A stretch of 64,000 nt of DNA from NCBI RefSeq assembly GCF_900102025.1, contig NZ_FNAU01000012.1, forward strand, positions 1 through 64,000, read 5' to 3'. Within the stretch, counting starts at the first letter, position 1, and every line of letters starts with the position of its first letter. This DNA comes from Actinobaculum suis (GTDB lineage Bacteria; Actinomycetota; Actinomycetes; Actinomycetales; Actinomycetaceae). Below are positions 17,707 through 30,189 of the stretch, in pieces. The translations under genes were made by a program, and so were the position numbers. The notes below the pieces were generated by a model. That model did not search any database. It was given only the letters and a program-made list of their open reading frames with translations, and was not told the DNA's origin.

Positions 17707-19416
17707 TTATGGTGCCAAACACGGGTTTCCGCGCGTACTTTTTCCTCTCTCAGTGTCCAAGTTCCTTTCCCAGTGGCCGATGAGCCAGAACCAACAAAAC
17801 ACTGCCACAGCCGCGAACAGCCAGGCCGCTATTACCATCCCAGGTAACAAGCTCGGATTCATACGCGCGGTGCCAAGCCACATGCGTTGCGGGAAATTCC
17901 ACAAGAACCCGATCCAGAGCACCAAACACATGCCAATCCAGATGCCGCGGAAAACATTCTCGACGCCGTTAGCGCCATTTGTTCGTACCTCGCTATTTGT
18001 CCGTACCTCGCTGTTTGTTCTAACCGCGCTGTTGCGGGCTCCCGCGGTATTGTTTTTCTTCTCTGCGATGCCGCCATTTCTTTGCGTGGCAGGTTCTTGG
18101 TTTCTGCTCGCTGCGGCATAGCAAGCAAGCATGAGAATGGGCATAAGGAGAGCGTAGCTATAGCGCAGTTGCCACATGTATCCGGCTTCGGCATAAACCT
18201 GCCCGTTCACGACCAAGATAGTAAGCGGGAAGAATACTATTCCGGCCGCGAGCGCGATTTTTTCCCGTCTGTTACCTCGCCAAATACCAATAATGAGGGT
18301 GCCGATAAGAAGTGCTTCGGCTAGATAGCGCAAATAACTGGGAACCGGAACCGATACCCAGGCCAGCACGGAAGAAAGATGCAGCTGCAGCTTGCTGAAC
18401 ACCTGTAACAGTAGTTCGCCGTAGTCCACGTTCCCCGCTACCGGTACGGTTGCTGCGCTCAGGTAGCGCCACCATAGCCATACCAGGCAGGCGGCGAAAG
18501 CGCTTGCCGCAGCGATCCATAATTCCCGGCGGCGCAAAAGCGCGAGGCAGGTGCGCCAGCCCAGCGCCAGGGCGAAAACAACCACTACTACGGCTACCCA
18601 AAAGGGGCCCACCGGCCGGGCCAGAATCCAGAGCACCAAAATTGGTGCCATTGCCAGCAAGATACGCCCTCTGGGTATTGCCGCAATCGCAGACGCGGAG
18701 CGCGAACCAGATTGCGCGTAATCTGCTCGGGAAGAATCCTTCCCGGGAGAATTCGTTACCGCCGGTGCCGCAGCGCTGCCCAACAAACGTATACAGAGGC
18801 CGGCAAAAGCAATCGCGCATCCTAGTTCCAGGGCCTGCGGATTGAGCATGCTCCCAACAGCTAGGCAGGTGGGGAACAAAAGCGCCGCAAATATTGGCAG
18901 CGCCGCCCGGCCACGCCAGCCGGCCCTTGCCAGCTGCGAAAGTCCGCAGCTGGTGAGCACAGAAAATACCGCGGCGGAAAGGAAACGCACCGCGATAAGT
19001 GCTAGTGGCCCCTGGGTGAACAGCAAAGGCCAACACGTGAGCAAATAGTGCAAGGGCGGGTAATTAGCCGCCGTCGTTGGCACCCGAATTTCTGTATTTC
19101 CTGCGTGCAAATTAGCGGCAGGGCAGGTGCGCACGTCTTCTGGATGATCATTCCAACATTGCATATCTGCCGCGGCCAGGTAGCGCGGAACAAGTACCGT
19201 ATCGGATTCCAGTGGTGCTTGCCCGGTCACCACCGCGTAGCCGTAGCGGAAATGTGCCTGTTCATCAGGCCCGGCAAAAGGCGCCGTCAATAAAGACAGT
19301 CCGAAAACCACGGCGAAAAGGGCCGCGAAACAACGCGGGAAAAACCACCGGTGCTGGCCTGAGGCCCGGCCTTTACTGCGCGCCGCACCAGCATGTTTAG
19401 CCCGAGTTTTTTCCAT
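17707..19416 (-). CDS. DUF2142-family membrane protein (probable GT-C type)
   Basis: A 569-residue polytopic protein. The family signature begins after helix 1: APFAGPDEQAHFRYGYAVVTGQAP, followed by YPPLHYLLTCWPLLF and LNPQALELG. DUF2142 proteins occur in actinobacterial glycan loci and look like GT-C transferases that use polyprenyl-linked sugars. No reaction is established to my knowledge. A loop near residues 475-505 carries a short VRTNSE repeat (18-base period). ATG at 19416 follows AAAGGGA. A paralogue with the same opening motif lies at 25797-27575. The gene is divergent from a polyprenyl-phosphate-type GT2 gene. Confidence 0.82.
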   Translation of the reverse strand: MEKTRAKHAGAARSKGRASGQHRWFFPRCFAALFAVVFGLSLLTAPFAGPDEQAHFRYGYAVVTGQAPLESDTVLVPRYLAAADMQCWNDHPEDVRTCPAANLHAGNTEIRVPTTAANYPPLHYLLTCWPLLFTQGPLALIAVRFLSAAVFSVLTSCGLSQLARAGWRGRAALPIFAALLFPTCLAVGSMLNPQALELGCAIAFAGLCIRLLGSAAAPAVTNSPGKDSSRADYAQSGSRSASAIAAIPRGRILLAMAPILVLWILARPVGPFWVAVVVVVFALALGWRTCLALLRRRELWIAAASAFAACLVWLWWRYLSAATVPVAGNVDYGELLLQVFSKLQLHLSSVLAWVSVPVPSYLRYLAEALLIGTLIIGIWRGNRREKIALAAGIVFFPLTILVVNGQVYAEAGYMWQLRYSYALLMPILMLACYAAASRNQEPATQRNGGIAEKKNNTAGARNSAVRTNSEVRTNSEVRTNGANGVENVFRGIWIGMCLVLWIGFLWNFPQRMWLGTARMNPSLLPGMVIAAWLFAAVAVFCWFWLIGHWERNLDTERGKSTRGNPCLAP

Positions 19417-22908: not shown

Positions 22909-23001
22909 ACTGCCCCGATCTTGCGCTCCCTGGCGCGTAAGGTTACTTTCGTCAACATCCAACTCTATACGGGCTTTGCCCATGATTCTCGAAAGGCTCT
23001 C
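22909..23001. promoter_or_regulatory. Divergent promoter region GT2 / flippase
   Basis: The 93-base gap separates two divergent genes. CTCTATACGG near 22970 could hold a rightward -10, but the -35 is unclear. GAAAGG at 22991-22996 is the binding site for the flippase start. Confidence 0.4.
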
Positions 23002-24342
23002 GTGAGTACAGCCTCCCCTTCTCGCCCGCCGGCCACCCCGCACGCTTCCGCTGCTGCGAATACTTCAAATGTGGTGGCGGTTGCGGCCAGTGCGATCGTT
23101 TCTGGTCTCGCTGGTTTCTTCCTCACCGTGGTCTCCGCGCGCGTGCTTAGCTTGCAAGATAACGCGAGTTTTTTGGTTTTTTGGTCGGCGTTTTCCGCTA
23201 TCACCGCGGTGCTTTCCGGGATCCAAAATGAGACGACGCGCGCCGTGCGAGCCGCTCGCCATACCGGCAATGACAGTGTGCCCGCAGGTACGGACCATAC
23301 TGCGCCACACTCGGCGCCAGCTAACGCGGATAGGAAAACCACGCGGGTGTTTGCGGCTATCGGATTGATAGCGGTGCTGGCTGCCTTGGTGGTGGCCGCG
23401 CTGTGGCCTGCCTGGCGCGCAATTTTCGGTGCCCAAGCTCCACTAGAACTCATGGTGCCAACTTTGATGCTCGTCGCTTTCGCTTACCCGGGCCAGCTCG
23501 GGACCGTGGGCGCTTTGGCCGGGCAGAACAATTGGAACCTCTTTGCGGTTCTTTCCGCTGCTGAACCAACGGTGCGGCTGGTGCTGGCCGGAGTGGCCGG
23601 GCTGGCCGGTACCGGACTGGCAGGCCTGTATGTAGGAGTTACCCTGGCCACGCTCACCTGGGCTGGGTTCGGTTGCCTGCAGCCGGTACGCCGAGCTTGG
23701 CGGGCTGAAGCTAGCCTCGATTTCCGCCAATTGCTTTCCCGTATGGCGCAGGCCATGGCCGCTACGGCTTTCTCCGCGGTGCTTATTAACGGCTTCCCGA
23801 TGCTTATGAGCCTGACTAGTGACGCGGCGGTTTATAGCGCGGCCGCTCCCCTAGTTACCGCAGTTTCGGTAACTAGGGCGCCGTTGCTCATGCCGCTCGT
23901 AGCTTTCCAGTCCATGGTGATCGCCGCTTTTGTAGACCGGCCGGAAAAGGTCGGAAGTGCCTTGGTGAAACTACTCGCCGGGATTGCCGGTGTGGCCGCG
24001 ATGGGCGGCGTGGCCGCTTATTTCTTGGGCCCGTGGTTGATGCGTTTCATTTACGGACCGGACTATGTGGTCCCGGGCTTAGTGTTGGGGCTATTGGTAG
24101 CCGCAGCGGCCTGTTTGGCCTTGCTCATGCTGGGCGGGGCAATTGCGCTGGCTTTAGATCTACATCGCTGGAATATGGCCGGCTGGGCCCTCGCCGTCGT
24201 TATTTCTGTAACGCTGATGTTTATGCCAGCCGCTTTAGAGATTCGCACTATTTCTGCGCTCATGATCGGACCTCTGTGCGGTTCTGCCGTGCATCTCTCG
24301 GCGATTTACCGCGCACTACAGGCCCGCGCTCGTGTACGTTAG
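23002..24342 (+). CDS. Wzx-like polysaccharide flippase
   Basis: A 446-residue protein with 12 or more hydrophobic segments in the pattern of the polysaccharide-transporter branch of the MOP superfamily. SGLAGFFLTVVSARVLS at the first helix and a repeating Ala/Val/Leu-rich topology fit Wzx/RfbX proteins, which flip undecaprenyl-diphosphate-linked oligosaccharides outward. Start GTG at 23002 has GAAAGG 5 nt upstream. A 27-codon upstream extension is unsupported. The locus therefore has both an ABC exporter and a flippase, suggesting at least two exported glycans or intermediates. Confidence 0.8.
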   Translation: MSTASPSRPPATPHASAAANTSNVVAVAASAIVSGLAGFFLTVVSARVLSLQDNASFLVFWSAFSAITAVLSGIQNETTRAVRAARHTGNDSVPAGTDHTAPHSAPANADRKTTRVFAAIGLIAVLAALVVAALWPAWRAIFGAQAPLELMVPTLMLVAFAYPGQLGTVGALAGQNNWNLFAVLSAAEPTVRLVLAGVAGLAGTGLAGLYVGVTLATLTWAGFGCLQPVRRAWRAEASLDFRQLLSRMAQAMAATAFSAVLINGFPMLMSLTSDAAVYSAAAPLVTAVSVTRAPLLMPLVAFQSMVIAAFVDRPEKVGSALVKLLAGIAGVAAMGGVAAYFLGPWLMRFIYGPDYVVPGLVLGLLVAAAACLALLMLGGAIALALDLHRWNMAGWALAVVISVTLMFMPAALEIRTISALMIGPLCGSAVHLSAIYRALQARARVR

Positions 24343-25796: not shown

Positions 25797-27575
25797 TTAC
25801 GGCTCTGCTGGAGTTTCTTGCGGATCTCGCGCGCCAACTCCTACTTCTTGTGTATCAGCTGCTTGCGTACCAGGTTCTTGCGTATCAGCTGCTTGTGTAT
25901 CAGGTTCGCTTTTTGGCAATGTTTCGGCGTCACTTGTAGATGGCGCAAACTCGCCACGAGACTTCCGCATGAGGTAGAAACACAGCACTAGGCCAGCAAC
26001 GAGCGCTGCCACCGCAAGTGTTATTCCCAGGCGGGCTGACCACGGCATTGAATACAAGAAACTGAGTACGTCAAGGCTCCAACTAGCGCCCTGCCAGAAC
26101 CGCGCGGCAGATTCACGCAGGAAGAACAGCCAACACACAACTGCAACAACGCCGGCAAAGCGCGCGGCCACGGCGTCGAGCCGTTGCCAAGAAAGCGCGG
26201 GAACGGTGTTGGAACCTACACCCGCTACAGTAACGCTTCCACGCGCAGAATTTCCGGTGGCTGCACCGGTAGCTTCGCTACCTACCAGTTCACTGCCTAC
26301 CAGCGCACTTTTATCGGATATTGCCCCGGATACCTTGGAACTATCCGGGCGATACGTACCAGATGGTGCCAGGCGGATACGGCCATAGATTTTACTTGCC
26401 AAAGCGGCAACGTACAGGCTAACGGGCATAATGAGCGGCATTGCGTAGCGCGTCTGCCACATCGGGCCGGTACGCGGCCACAAGGTAATCACGATTACCA
26501 GGCAAAGCGCACCAGCACATAGTATTCCGAGAATCGGCACCAGCCTTTGCCGCCATTTGCCATGCACCAGCACGCACCAAAGCAGGCCGAGAGGGATCAG
26601 CAAGTATAGGTAGACGAAAGGCTGCGGCATGCGCGCGGTATGTGCACCACCCATTACACCCACGTATTGGGTTACCCATTCCGGAAGGAGATTTCCCATG
26701 AAATGCACGATGGGGCCTACCCCGCCGATCGATTGGGGCTCCGGCTCCTGTAGCGGTTGTGGGAACAACAAACCCCACGCTAAAACAGCTACGCAGGCTA
26801 GTGCACATACCCCGGCATATGTCCACAGCCCGCGGCGGGCAAGCTCCTGGCGCAACCGCGGCCACGGCATCGCAACCAGAAATACAAGGCTCAGCGCTAT
26901 CGCCCACAACATGCCTACACTGCGTGAAAGGATCATCAAAACCGCCGCGAAGGTAAGAGCGGGCCAAGGTATCCTATTTTGCCCGCGATAAAGCACCCAA
27001 TTCCATGCATAACCGGCAAAGAGGATGCTCGCTCCAATTTCAAGGGCCTGTGGGTTAACCCCCGCTACGATTGCAAATACCGAGGGCGTGGTGACGGCAA
27101 GTGTAAGCAGCAAGGTTGGGAAATCGCGCCCTTCTCGCGAAAGCTTCCAAATACCAGTGCCGGCCAGCAAACTAAACAGCAATACGCTGAGGATACGCAC
27201 GCCTAATAAAGCCGGCCATCCGCTGAGGAAGAGTAACGGCCACCCGACTATCGCATAGTAAAGCGGAGGATAGTTCGCGGCGGCGGAACGCGCCTCCACC
27301 ATGGTTGTGGAATCACGCCCCTCGATTTGCCGCGCGCATAGTGCGGATGTAACCTCGGAATCACGCCAGCAGTCCGATTCGTCGGTTTTTACGTAGGTCG
27401 GGACTTCTACCGTGCCTTTTGCGTCCATGGGTGCTTGCCCAGAAACGACGGCGTAGGCATAGACCTGGTGTGCCATCTCATCTGGCCCACCATCAGCCGG
27501 AACAATCAATCCGATACCCGTGCCCAACAGTAAAAACCAAGCAACGATGAGGCCCCAACGCCCGCGCTTACCCAT
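25797..27575 (-). CDS. DUF2142-family membrane protein (second copy)
   Basis: A 592-residue polytopic protein, paralogous to the one at 17707-19416: after helix 1 it has PADGGPDEMAHQVYAYAVVSGQAP, then YPPLYYAIVGWPLLFL and GVNPQALEIG. It is a probable GT-C-type transferase of a surface glycan. A loop near 405-445 carries SELVGSE-type repeats, and the C-terminal 30 residues repeat TQAADTQE with a 30-base period. These are further cases of in-frame tandem duplication. ATG at 27575 is preceded by AAGGAAGG. It is divergent from the FG-GAP/GGCT gene. Confidence 0.82.
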   Translation of the reverse strand: MGKRGRWGLIVAWFLLLGTGIGLIVPADGGPDEMAHQVYAYAVVSGQAPMDAKGTVEVPTYVKTDESDCWRDSEVTSALCARQIEGRDSTTMVEARSAAANYPPLYYAIVGWPLLFLSGWPALLGVRILSVLLFSLLAGTGIWKLSREGRDFPTLLLTLAVTTPSVFAIVAGVNPQALEIGASILFAGYAWNWVLYRGQNRIPWPALTFAAVLMILSRSVGMLWAIALSLVFLVAMPWPRLRQELARRGLWTYAGVCALACVAVLAWGLLFPQPLQEPEPQSIGGVGPIVHFMGNLLPEWVTQYVGVMGGAHTARMPQPFVYLYLLIPLGLLWCVLVHGKWRQRLVPILGILCAGALCLVIVITLWPRTGPMWQTRYAMPLIMPVSLYVAALASKIYGRIRLAPSGTYRPDSSKVSGAISDKSALVGSELVGSEATGAATGNSARGSVTVAGVGSNTVPALSWQRLDAVAARFAGVVAVVCWLFFLRESAARFWQGASWSLDVLSFLYSMPWSARLGITLAVAALVAGLVLCFYLMRKSRGEFAPSTSDAETLPKSEPDTQAADTQEPGTQAADTQEVGVGARDPQETPAEP

Positions 27576-27756: not shown

Positions 27757-29154
27757 ATGGAAACTCAGATTGCAATACCCCTCAGAACAGCCACGAGAGC
27801 AGCTGCGCGAACAACTACGAGAAGAACGCGCAGAAGGCGCAGAATCGGCGCCGGATTCACCGCGCTACTTTTGGGAGCATCTACTTTTGGCGCTATGCCT
27901 GCCGCTTCTGCCACCAACCAAGTTGGAACAGTGGCGGCAACTTCTTCCGCCACCCAGGTTGCCTATCCTGCCGCTAGTGCATCGGCCACCGGGCGATCAG
28001 CTCCGGCACTTTTGCCCAATTTGCCGCTCGCGCCTGCGGTGCGGGCTACCAACCAGTATTTTTTCAAAAACTCTTTGACCAGCGGGGTGGCCGACTTTTC
28101 GATCTATTACGGCAACCCGGGCGATACCGTCCTGGTAGGTGATTGGAACGGAGACGGCCGCGATACGCTGGCGGTGCGCCGCGCCAACCAATACTACGTC
28201 AAAAACTCCCTGGCAAGCGGCATAGCAGATCACGAGTTTACTTACGGTAACCCAAACGACTCTGTGCTGGTAGGCGATTGGGACGGCGACGGCGTCGATA
28301 CGCTAGCGGTGCGCCGCGGTAACCAATACTTCGTGAAAAACGACCTCAAAACCGGTGTGGCGGACCAAGTTTTCGTCTACGGTAACCCGGGCGATACCGT
28401 CCTGGTAGGTGATTGGAACGGAGACGGCCGCGATACGCTGGCGGTGCGCCGCGCCAACAAGTACTACGTAAAGAACAACCTAGAAACCGGAATCGCCGAC
28501 CACGAGTTTACTTACGGTAACCCAAACGACTCTGTGCTGGTAGGCGATTGGGACGGCGACGGCGTCGATACGCTAGCGGTGCGCCGCGGTAACCAATATT
28601 TCGTGAAAAACGACCTCAAAACCGGTATAGCGGAAACGGTTTTCGCTTACGGAATCAATATCGACGCCGTTTACGCCGGCGATTGGAACGGGGACGGCCG
28701 CGATACGCTCATGGTGCGGCGGATGGAAGCAGAACCGGAATCGGCAGGTATACCGGTGATGGTCTACGGCACTTTGCGTACCGGGCAGGAAGCAGATTTC
28801 GTGGTGAATGGTACCTATACCTCGAAGCGAGTTGCCCGGGCACCGTGGGCGGAACTGTGGGTGACCAACGGTAATCCGTTGCGCGGGGTGTGGCCGTGGG
28901 CAGTACCTGGAAATCACGGGCTGGTTGGAGAAGTGCTCACCTTCGGGCCCGCGAACTACAACCAGATGATCCGCAAACTGGACCGTTGGGAAGGTTTTGT
29001 ACCGGGGCGTTCCCTCAACCGGATGAATTACACGCGCGAAATCGTGGATACGAATCTGGGGCCCGCCTATGTTTACGTGGCCACGCCTTGGCGGCAGGCA
29101 CAGGCCCGCGCCCACGGCGTGCTCCTCCCCGATGGAGATTTCACCCGTTACTAA
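27757..29154 (+). CDS. Secreted FG-GAP-like repeat protein with C-terminal gamma-glutamylcyclotransferase domain
   Basis: A 465-residue protein. Residues 1-52 form a long arginine-rich N-region and hydrophobic core ending MPAASA, a plausible signal peptide with cleavage near 52. Residues 99-322 are five 45-residue repeats, each with GDW(N/D)GDG.DTL.VRR, resembling calcium-binding FG-GAP/VCBS blades. Residues of about 333-465 match the gamma-glutamylcyclotransferase/AIG2 fold: substrate loop VYGTLRTGQ (Y337) and LDRWEGF, whose E412 aligns with the catalytic glutamate of the family. The enzyme family releases 5-oxoproline from gamma-glutamyl amines or peptides. An extracellular version suggests a wall or peptide substrate. 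The start is uncertain (no clear binding site). Upstream in-frame codons overlap the divergent gene. Confidence 0.75.
   Translation: METQIAIPLRTATRAAARTTTRRTRRRRRIGAGFTALLLGASTFGAMPAASATNQVGTVAATSSATQVAYPAASASATGRSAPALLPNLPLAPAVRATNQYFFKNSLTSGVADFSIYYGNPGDTVLVGDWNGDGRDTLAVRRANQYYVKNSLASGIADHEFTYGNPNDSVLVGDWDGDGVDTLAVRRGNQYFVKNDLKTGVADQVFVYGNPGDTVLVGDWNGDGRDTLAVRRANKYYVKNNLETGIADHEFTYGNPNDSVLVGDWDGDGVDTLAVRRGNQYFVKNDLKTGIAETVFAYGINIDAVYAGDWNGDGRDTLMVRRMEAEPESAGIPVMVYGTLRTGQEADFVVNGTYTSKRVARAPWAELWVTNGNPLRGVWPWAVPGNHGLVGEVLTFGPANYNQMIRKLDRWEGFVPGRSLNRMNYTREIVDTNLGPAYVYVATPWRQAQARAHGVLLPDGDFTRY
28111..28650 (+). repeat. 270-bp higher-order tandem repeat (two 135-bp blades)
   Basis: Long stretches at 28111 onward recur almost identically at 28381 onward, and those at 28231 onward recur at 28501 onward. 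The offset is 270 bases, or two 45-residue blades. Near-identity at the DNA level points to recent duplication or gene conversion. Confidence 0.9.
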
Positions 29155-29322: not shown

Positions 29323-30189
29323 ATGACACACGCACCCACAGCTAGCAATAACTCGCAAGGCACCCGGCAACGCGGCCTCGCCCCGCACCGCACTACATTG
29401 TTTTGGAAACCTTCCTTCCAGAACCCTTCCTCACGGAAACCTTCCTCACGGAAACCTTCCTTCCGCAAAGCTTTCCGCCACGCGTTCTTCCAAAAAGCTG
29501 TGGCAGCAGGCGCGGCCTTCGGTTTAGCTACCTTTGGGCTGTGCGGGCTGAGTGGCTGTAGCAAGAGCGCCCAGGCCGCAGATCCATATCCTGATCCGGT
29601 ACCGGTAGCGAGCGCCGCACCTGGTCGCGAGGCCGTACCCGGTGCCGACGCCGCCCCCGCAGCTTCCACGCAAGCTTCCGCTTCTCCTGCTTCCGCGGGG
29701 GAAGAACCGAGCACGGTACCAACTTCTCCGGAAGGGGATGTGGAGGCTACCGTGGGCACTCCGATCGGACTTGCCGCAGACAGTGGGAATACCTCGGTGT
29801 TTGAGCTGACTGTCAACAGTATTACGCAGCAGACCACTTGCCCTTCGAAACTAGACGGCAGCGCGGTACATCCCAGTAAAGATAATTTCCTCGTAATTGA
29901 TCTGAGCGCACAGATGAGCCCCGAATACGCGGCGAAAGATCCCAAGTATCCCTTCCTCACTTTGGACCGTGACGTTTGGTACATTACGAATCCGGCCGGG
30001 GTGATCGAGGAGGGCACGCTGAGCGTGAAGAGCTACGAATGCTTCGGCGATGCGGAAGCAATCCAGCCCTTCGTAAATCCCGGCGAAGCGGTTGCGGGAA
30101 AGCTTGCCCTCGATACCGATACGGAACACGGCTATCTTCACTACAATCCATTCGGAGTGCCCGGTTCGGGATGGCGCTGGGCGTTCTAG
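29323..30189 (+). CDS. Lipoprotein with DUF4352-like domain
   Basis: A 288-residue protein. The lipobox LSGC ends at Cys79, preceded by a hydrophobic stretch (about 58-75) and an unusually long basic cytoplasmic N-region containing KPSSR/KPSFR repeats (15-base period). After Cys79 comes a Pro/Ala/Ser-rich linker to about 145, then a domain with VFELTVNSITQQ and DNFLVIDLSAQM resembling the immunoprotective-extracellular/DUF4352 fold. Two cysteines (TTCPS and SYECF) may form a disulphide. The function is unknown. It is probably anchored to the outer face of the membrane. GAGAGG lies 10 nt before the ATG. The stop lies in an 18-bp imperfect duplication. Confidence 0.72.
   Translation: MTHAPTASNNSQGTRQRGLAPHRTTLFWKPSFQNPSSRKPSSRKPSFRKAFRHAFFQKAVAAGAAFGLATFGLCGLSGCSKSAQAADPYPDPVPVASAAPGREAVPGADAAPAASTQASASPASAGEEPSTVPTSPEGDVEATVGTPIGLAADSGNTSVFELTVNSITQQTTCPSKLDGSAVHPSKDNFLVIDLSAQMSPEYAAKDPKYPFLTLDRDVWYITNPAGVIEEGTLSVKSYECFGDAEAIQPFVNPGEAVAGKLALDTDTEHGYLHYNPFGVPGSGWRWAF

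Follow-up and report, generated by a model that had tools for sequence, protein, structure and literature searches.

Within the window analysed here, the first 64,000 nucleotides of contig NZ_FNAU01000012.1 of Actinobaculum suis (assembly GCF_900102025.1; 57.3% G+C), we followed up a gene whose product joins a signal-peptide-like N-terminus, five repeats of the GDWNGDG type and a gamma-glutamylamine cyclotransferase (GGACT) domain (Table 1). This three-part architecture had been proposed in a sequence-only reading of the stretch, and it is borne out by the open reading frame, the repeat spacing and the assignment of the C-terminal domain to Pfam PF06094. A second gene, which follows on the same strand and encodes a putative lipoprotein, is a conserved partner of the first and was absent from that reading.

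Table 1. Features of the GGACT gene and its partner (window coordinates)
Feature	Position	Strand	Basis
Putatively exported five-repeat/GGACT fusion protein, 465 aa	27757..29154	+	ORF, Pfam, full-length orthologues
Signal-peptide-like segment with long Arg-rich n-region, ending at ASA, residues 1-51	27757..27909	+	Sequence; clean orthologue signals
Five 45-aa FG-GAP-like repeats forming one five-unit module, DxNGDGxD/DxDGDGxD loop in each	28057..28728	+	Sequence
GGACT (gamma-glutamylamine cyclotransferase/AIG2-like) domain, residues 334-462	28756..29142	+	PF06094, conservation, AF2, Foldseek
Partner, putative lipoprotein with lipobox-like LSGC; C-terminal telokin-like/DUF4352-type beta-sandwich (predicted) at 29734-30186	29323..30189	+	Adjacency, AF2, Foldseek

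The N-terminus of the fusion protein consists of a basic n-region, a short hydrophobic core at residues ca. 30-47 and an ASA cleavage-type site, and we infer that the protein is exported. In the window protein this signal reaches no more than moderate strength (maximum over Kyte-Doolittle 15-mers, 1.57); orthologues from A. massiliense (MKKSCFAQGLVGGIALALVGTQLGAPAQASA) and from another relative have clean signal peptides at the same place. An unusually long n-region is common to the two adjoining products, Arg-rich in the GGACT protein and basic in the partner, where a 15-bp in-frame tandem repeat of 3.8 copies (29405-29461) extends it. The repeat units of the GGACT protein span residues 101-324, with the motif GDW[ND]GDG occurring exactly five times (at 128, 173, 218, 263 and 308) at spacings of 45, 45, 45 and 45 residues. 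At the DNA level, the array is a 135-bp tandem repeat that contains a recent 270-bp duplication. The Pfam model FG-GAP_3 (PF13517) reaches 24.8 bits (E = 3.5e-5) against a cut-off of 26.9, and the repeats are FG-GAP-like rather than a clean member of that family. No relevant NCBIfam family was found for the protein, and a single-sequence search of the PDB with it returned no match.

The C-terminal domain aligns with positions 1-118 of the 120 in the GGACT family profile (E = 1.4e-8), its 35.8 bits exceeding the cut-off of 22.8, and its gene is the only one with PF06094 found in this genome. Retention of the YGTLR loop and of the glutamate in LDRWEGF had been noted before; these lie at residues 337-341 and 408-414, the glutamate being E412, and the full set of active-site-motif residues comprises Y337, G338, T339, L340, R341, D409, E412, Y425, R427, Y440, G460 and D461. 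A profile of ten exported domains matches E. coli YtfP, Pyrococcus PH0828 and human and mouse GGACT, and places the query Glu opposite residue 82 in the GGACT chain. The catalytic site of GGACT includes Tyr7, Gly8, Thr9, Leu10, Glu82 and Tyr88 (PMC2954230); their counterparts in the window protein are Y337, G338, T339, L340 and E412, and that of Tyr88 is probably Y425, the tyrosine of a Y-x-R motif. The AlphaFold2 model of the domain (pLDDT 93.3) was matched by Foldseek to 1v30, YkqA, human GGACT, human GGCT and ChaC2, and also to a domain of allophanate hydrolase. The matches to 1v30, 2qik and 3jub have a probability of 1.00 and confirm the GGCT fold as modelled. All catalytic residues are present in the domain.

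Putatively exported GGACT domains (hereafter, exported domains) occur at a minimum of 25 loci in several families of the Actinomycetales. Within the family of A. suis they were found in 24 of 213 genomes, representing nine genera, and three other families sampled in the order contributed five more genomes that carry them. In a tree with intracellular relatives, a single branch (93/90; recovered in 94% of bootstrap trees) has all the exported domains on one side. The repeat-GGACT fusion, for which the sequence-only reading had suggested an architecture search, recurs in orthologues of A. massiliense, Actinotignum and Georgenia, and is not a chance fusion. The exported domains diverge down to ca. 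28% identity. In the active-site motifs, the residues Y, G, L, G, D, E, Y and R are identical in all 26 exported and 19 intracellular-type domains compared, and among the 26 the YG[TS]L loop and the catalytic Glu are invariant save for the T/S exchange. The position after the loop does differ: many intracellular GGACTs read G-x-x-N and the exported ones G-x-x-[AG], such that the Asn-His of the mouse, human and many bacterial enzymes is replaced by Ala or Gly followed by an aromatic residue or His. The substrate preference of the exported domains may therefore differ.

The part that precedes the GGACT domain has been exchanged at least nine times within the exported branch. It can be the five-unit repeat, Pfam FG-GAP_3 repeats, SLH, SLH with fn3-like and FG-GAP_3 modules, bacterial SH3, a GWAIDPDT-type domain or WAxxGxPxP repeats, and Pfam identifies several of these clearly (SLH, E = 2.7e-36; SH3_3, E = 2.9e-25; FG-GAP_3 also present). 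The GGACT domain is the constant part of these proteins and the surface-binding module the swapped part. SLH and SH3 modules are wall-binding, and in one SLH carrier the GGACT gene is adjoined by a gene for polysaccharide pyruvyl transferase, the usual companion of SLH anchoring. In Actinotignum sanguinis (L012) and in genome G107 (contigs C1 and C59) the GGACT gene is interrupted towards its 3' end, not far from the end of a contig. The two G107 pieces are on separate contigs, and an assembly break or an insertion may be located within the gene.

Homologues of the partner adjoin the exported GGACT, or are fused to it, in 24 of 25 assessable loci, and only one locus (L171) has no partner nearby. 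They stand beside the GGACT gene in Actinotignum, in A. massiliense and with all module types, frequently as two tandem copies, and at one locus (L176) the order of the two genes is reversed. At four loci (L164 and L178-L180) a partner-homologous domain follows GGACT within one polypeptide; hhalign aligned this fused domain to the partner with a probability of 97.2 (E = 3e-11), using a partner alignment that contains one wrong residue, in row 13, and that also underlies the partner profile searches. In most loci the start of the partner falls within -20 to about +60 nt of the stop codon of the GGACT gene, often with an overlap, and the two genes are often translationally coupled; the gap in the window is 168 nt. 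Among the 213 family genomes, 19 have both genes, five have GGACT with a divergent fused partner, four have the partner alone and 185 have neither, a co-occurrence with a Fisher p of 5e-19 by genome and 2.6e-6 at the genus level, both inflated by shared ancestry.

No Pfam or NCBIfam family matched the partner above its cut-off; PF11611 stayed below, with a best E of 0.12 and matches in 2 of 16 members. The AlphaFold2 model of the partner (pLDDT 93.1), whose C-terminal domain comprises 151 residues, was matched by Foldseek to 5bxg and to YjhA (3cfu), the latter with a probability of 1.00, an E of 3.8e-4, a TM of 0.55-0.61 and a moderate rmsd. The partner is accordingly modelled as a telokin-like beta-sandwich. 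Orphan partner homologues, from genomes that lack an exported GGACT, form a more divergent branch (E of 1e-9 to 1e-27) and have no GGACT in their vicinity, and on these grounds we dropped them as a functional clue. Many Actinomycetales that lack an exported GGACT have more distant homologues (L201-L219), which form part of a broader unannotated DUF4352-like family.

The five-unit module was also traced in other proteins. Across relatives, 125 of 149 runs had exactly five units, in a set whose loci were found by similarity to a five-unit query and in which some loci were counted twice. Such a module, with five units of 45 residues, is probably a five-bladed propeller. Where the module is N-terminal, it precedes NlpC/P60, M23, VanY (two proteins), YkuD, polysaccharide deacetylase, C39 or CAP domains, largely peptidoglycan enzymes and mostly in actinobacteria, which supports wall targeting of the window protein. 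In the genome of A. suis itself, the module is C-terminal on sialidase-like, subtilase, 5'-nucleotidase, phosphatase and nuclease proteins. This diversity of enzymes indicates a module that serves the surface generally and is not peptidoglycan-specific. At least eight exported proteins of this genome (L150-L158) end in the five-unit module and mostly terminate in TPAVDRR; they are mostly large enzymes (subtilases, BNR/sialidase-like proteins, a 5'-nucleotidase, metallophosphatases and an LTD-nuclease), and the TPAVDRR-ending module is a possible alternative to LPXTG anchoring. In a Propionibacteriaceae MAG (L021), three neighbouring proteins combine the module with C39, YkuD and an SLT-like region (no Pfam match).

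Around the pair in the window lie glycosyltransferases, a dTDP-sugar-dehydratase-like gene, a UDP-sugar dehydrogenase and a LytR-CpsA-Psr protein. The same polysaccharide locus includes two DUF2142 membrane proteins (17707-19416 and 25797-27575, both on the minus strand), and a 473-aa open reading frame without a Pfam match (22921-24342, plus strand) has homologues, grouped as cluster F3, close to the corresponding locus in A. massiliense (L160) and in Actinotignum (L009 and L011). By neighbour clustering and Pfam, the neighbourhood of the pair is partly shared by A. massiliense and by Actinotignum, and to some extent by one other genus (L179/L180). The neighbours in other carriers are ABC/MFS transporters, UDPGP, 6PGD, aconitase or regulators, with no wall-polysaccharide locus, and the pair thus moves independently of wall-polysaccharide genes. 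The sequence-only reading had taken the locus to favour a wall target. As evidence on the substrate we have largely dropped it, because it is absent from other carriers and such a neighbourhood is not general; the link to the wall itself draws more on the swapping of modules (SLH, SH3 and the five-unit module that elsewhere carries wall enzymes) than on this neighbourhood.

We consider it fairly probable that the gene encodes an exported, wall-retained gamma-glutamyl cyclotransferase of the GGACT fold, of predicted activity, which works with the adjacent telokin-like surface lipoprotein. The signal peptide would lead to export of the enzyme, the five-unit FG-GAP-like module would hold it on the wall or a surface glycan, and the YGTLR loop of the C-terminal domain would take up a gamma-glutamyl group whose alpha-amine is free. 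With E412 as catalyst, this amine would attack the gamma-carbonyl, and 5-oxoproline would be set free together with the other product, an amine that is probably lysine or a further amine of the wall. At the interface of membrane and wall, the lipoprotein probably serves to tether, position or activate the enzyme, and tethering or positioning is the most likely of these roles because fusion in cis is tolerated.

The chemistry of the family bears directly on the substrate. In GGCT and GGACT enzymes, the free alpha-amine of the gamma-glutamyl group attacks its own gamma-carbonyl to form 5-oxoproline, with the conserved Glu as acid/base. The D-Glu of the stem peptide is acylated on its amine by L-Ala, so the intact stem peptide is an unlikely substrate. 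The sequence-only reading had proposed an extracellular cyclotransferase that might cut gamma-glutamyl bonds, those of D-Glu in peptidoglycan stems among them. Of this proposal, a putatively exported protein of the GGACT fold that has its active site intact and is probably tied to the wall is supported, and the stem D-Glu target is weakened, cleavage within intact stems being chemically unlikely with D-Glu N-acylated. The most likely class of substrate is instead a free-amine gamma-glutamyl end from wall metabolism, which could be a gamma-D-Glu end freed by an L-alanyl-D-glutamate peptidase or the D-Glu of an uncrosslinked dicarboxylic-acid bridge.

In its most specific version, which we put forward tentatively and regard as doubtful, this explanation has the enzyme strip D-Glu from uncrosslinked A5alpha L-Lys-L-Lys-D-Glu bridges and so lower cross-linking. 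It is rather improbable that such activity amounts to a lipoprotein-guided peptidoglycan-editing system, which would remove D-Glu as 5-oxo-D-proline from uncrosslinked bridges or exposed gamma-D-glutamyl ends to adjust the degree of cross-linking in actinobacteria whose bridges contain a dicarboxylic acid. Gamma-glutamyl-epsilon-lysine is a known type of GGACT substrate, and the D-Glu of an uncrosslinked bridge offers a free alpha-amine and may be joined to lysine through its gamma-carboxyl. The association of the modules with wall enzymes is consistent with editing, as is the A5alpha L-Lys-L-Lys-D-Glu peptidoglycan of Actinotignum schaalii (PMC5720513). However, the carboxyl, alpha or gamma, through which the bridge D-Glu is linked was not found in the literature searched, characterised enzymes take L-Glu, and the distribution of the gene within the family is patchy. 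The free amine that the chemistry requires is also present on glutathione and gamma-Glu-Lys isodipeptides, and Actinobaculum and Actinotignum are urogenital bacteria, so surface scavenging of free gamma-glutamyl peptides from host or environment is conceivable; we nonetheless think it unlikely. Scavenging does not need SLH and SH3 wall-binding modules, no transporter consistently adjoins the pair, and a Georgenia isolate and other genera carry the gene too, which also makes host glutathione, another target suggested from the sequence, a poor general one.

A C-terminal catalytic domain behind exchangeable N-terminal modules, with a partner immediately adjacent and often duplicated, recalls an exported toxin that harms competitors' walls while an immunity lipoprotein, here the telokin-like partner, protects the producer. 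Yet the putative toxin domain is constant and the delivery part variable, the reverse of polymorphic toxins; the partner can be fused into the same polypeptide (L164, L178-L180); PADLOC gave no match and no secretion-system context was seen. We therefore hold this reading to be highly improbable. It is also very unlikely that the domain is structural and non-catalytic, with the GGCT fold used at the surface to bind a ligand. Domains of this fold are not always enzymes and can also take other substrates, as exemplified by the occurrence of the fold within allophanate hydrolase, but the invariance of the catalytic residues across such divergent exported domains speaks for an enzyme.

Compared with known systems, the window protein shares with human and mouse GGACT (A2LD1; PDB 3jub, 3jud and 1vkb) the fold, the YGTL loop, the position of the catalytic Glu and a Tyr88-equivalent Tyr. 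Those enzymes are single-domain proteins with neither export signal nor partner and with Asn after the loop, whereas the window protein is putatively exported, has repeats in front of the enzyme domain and a lipoprotein as partner, and lacks an Asn at that position. The bacterial UPF0131 proteins YtfP, YkqA and PH0828 (PDB 1xhs, 2qik and 1v30) have the same fold and belong to the same family, YtfP being the best match by profile and PH0828 by structure, but they lack a signal peptide, wall modules and a telokin-like partner. Actinobacterial FG-GAP-like surface proteins, including carriers of wall hydrolases, have the same five-unit, 45-aa module; they carry a peptidase, transpeptidase, deacetylase, sialidase or nuclease, and the window protein a cyclotransferase. 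The partner has the predicted beta-sandwich fold of telokin-like/DUF4352 proteins (YjhA, PDB 3cfu; C. difficile 5bxg) and differs from them as a separate subfamily that is genetically bound to exported GGACT. Literature searches, which covered few subscription papers, returned no description of an exported GGACT, or of a GGACT with FG-GAP or SLH, in agreement with the sequence-only reading, which knew of no characterised enzyme with this combination; the main text of an A. massiliense proteome paper makes no mention of FG-GAP or cyclotransferase. Thus, the fold and chemistry are known, and the exported, wall-targeted, two-gene form appears to be new.

To our knowledge, the characterised cyclotransferases of the GGCT fold are intracellular and act in glutathione and isopeptide breakdown, and we know of no list of wall-modifying enzymes that includes cyclising release of terminal gamma-glutamyl groups. 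A conserved exported branch with wall-binding modules exchanged many times over and a dedicated partner would add this release to the wall-modifying chemistries, and two unannotated gene families would gain a common function that can be tested, also in the urinary pathogens Actinotignum and Actinobaculum.
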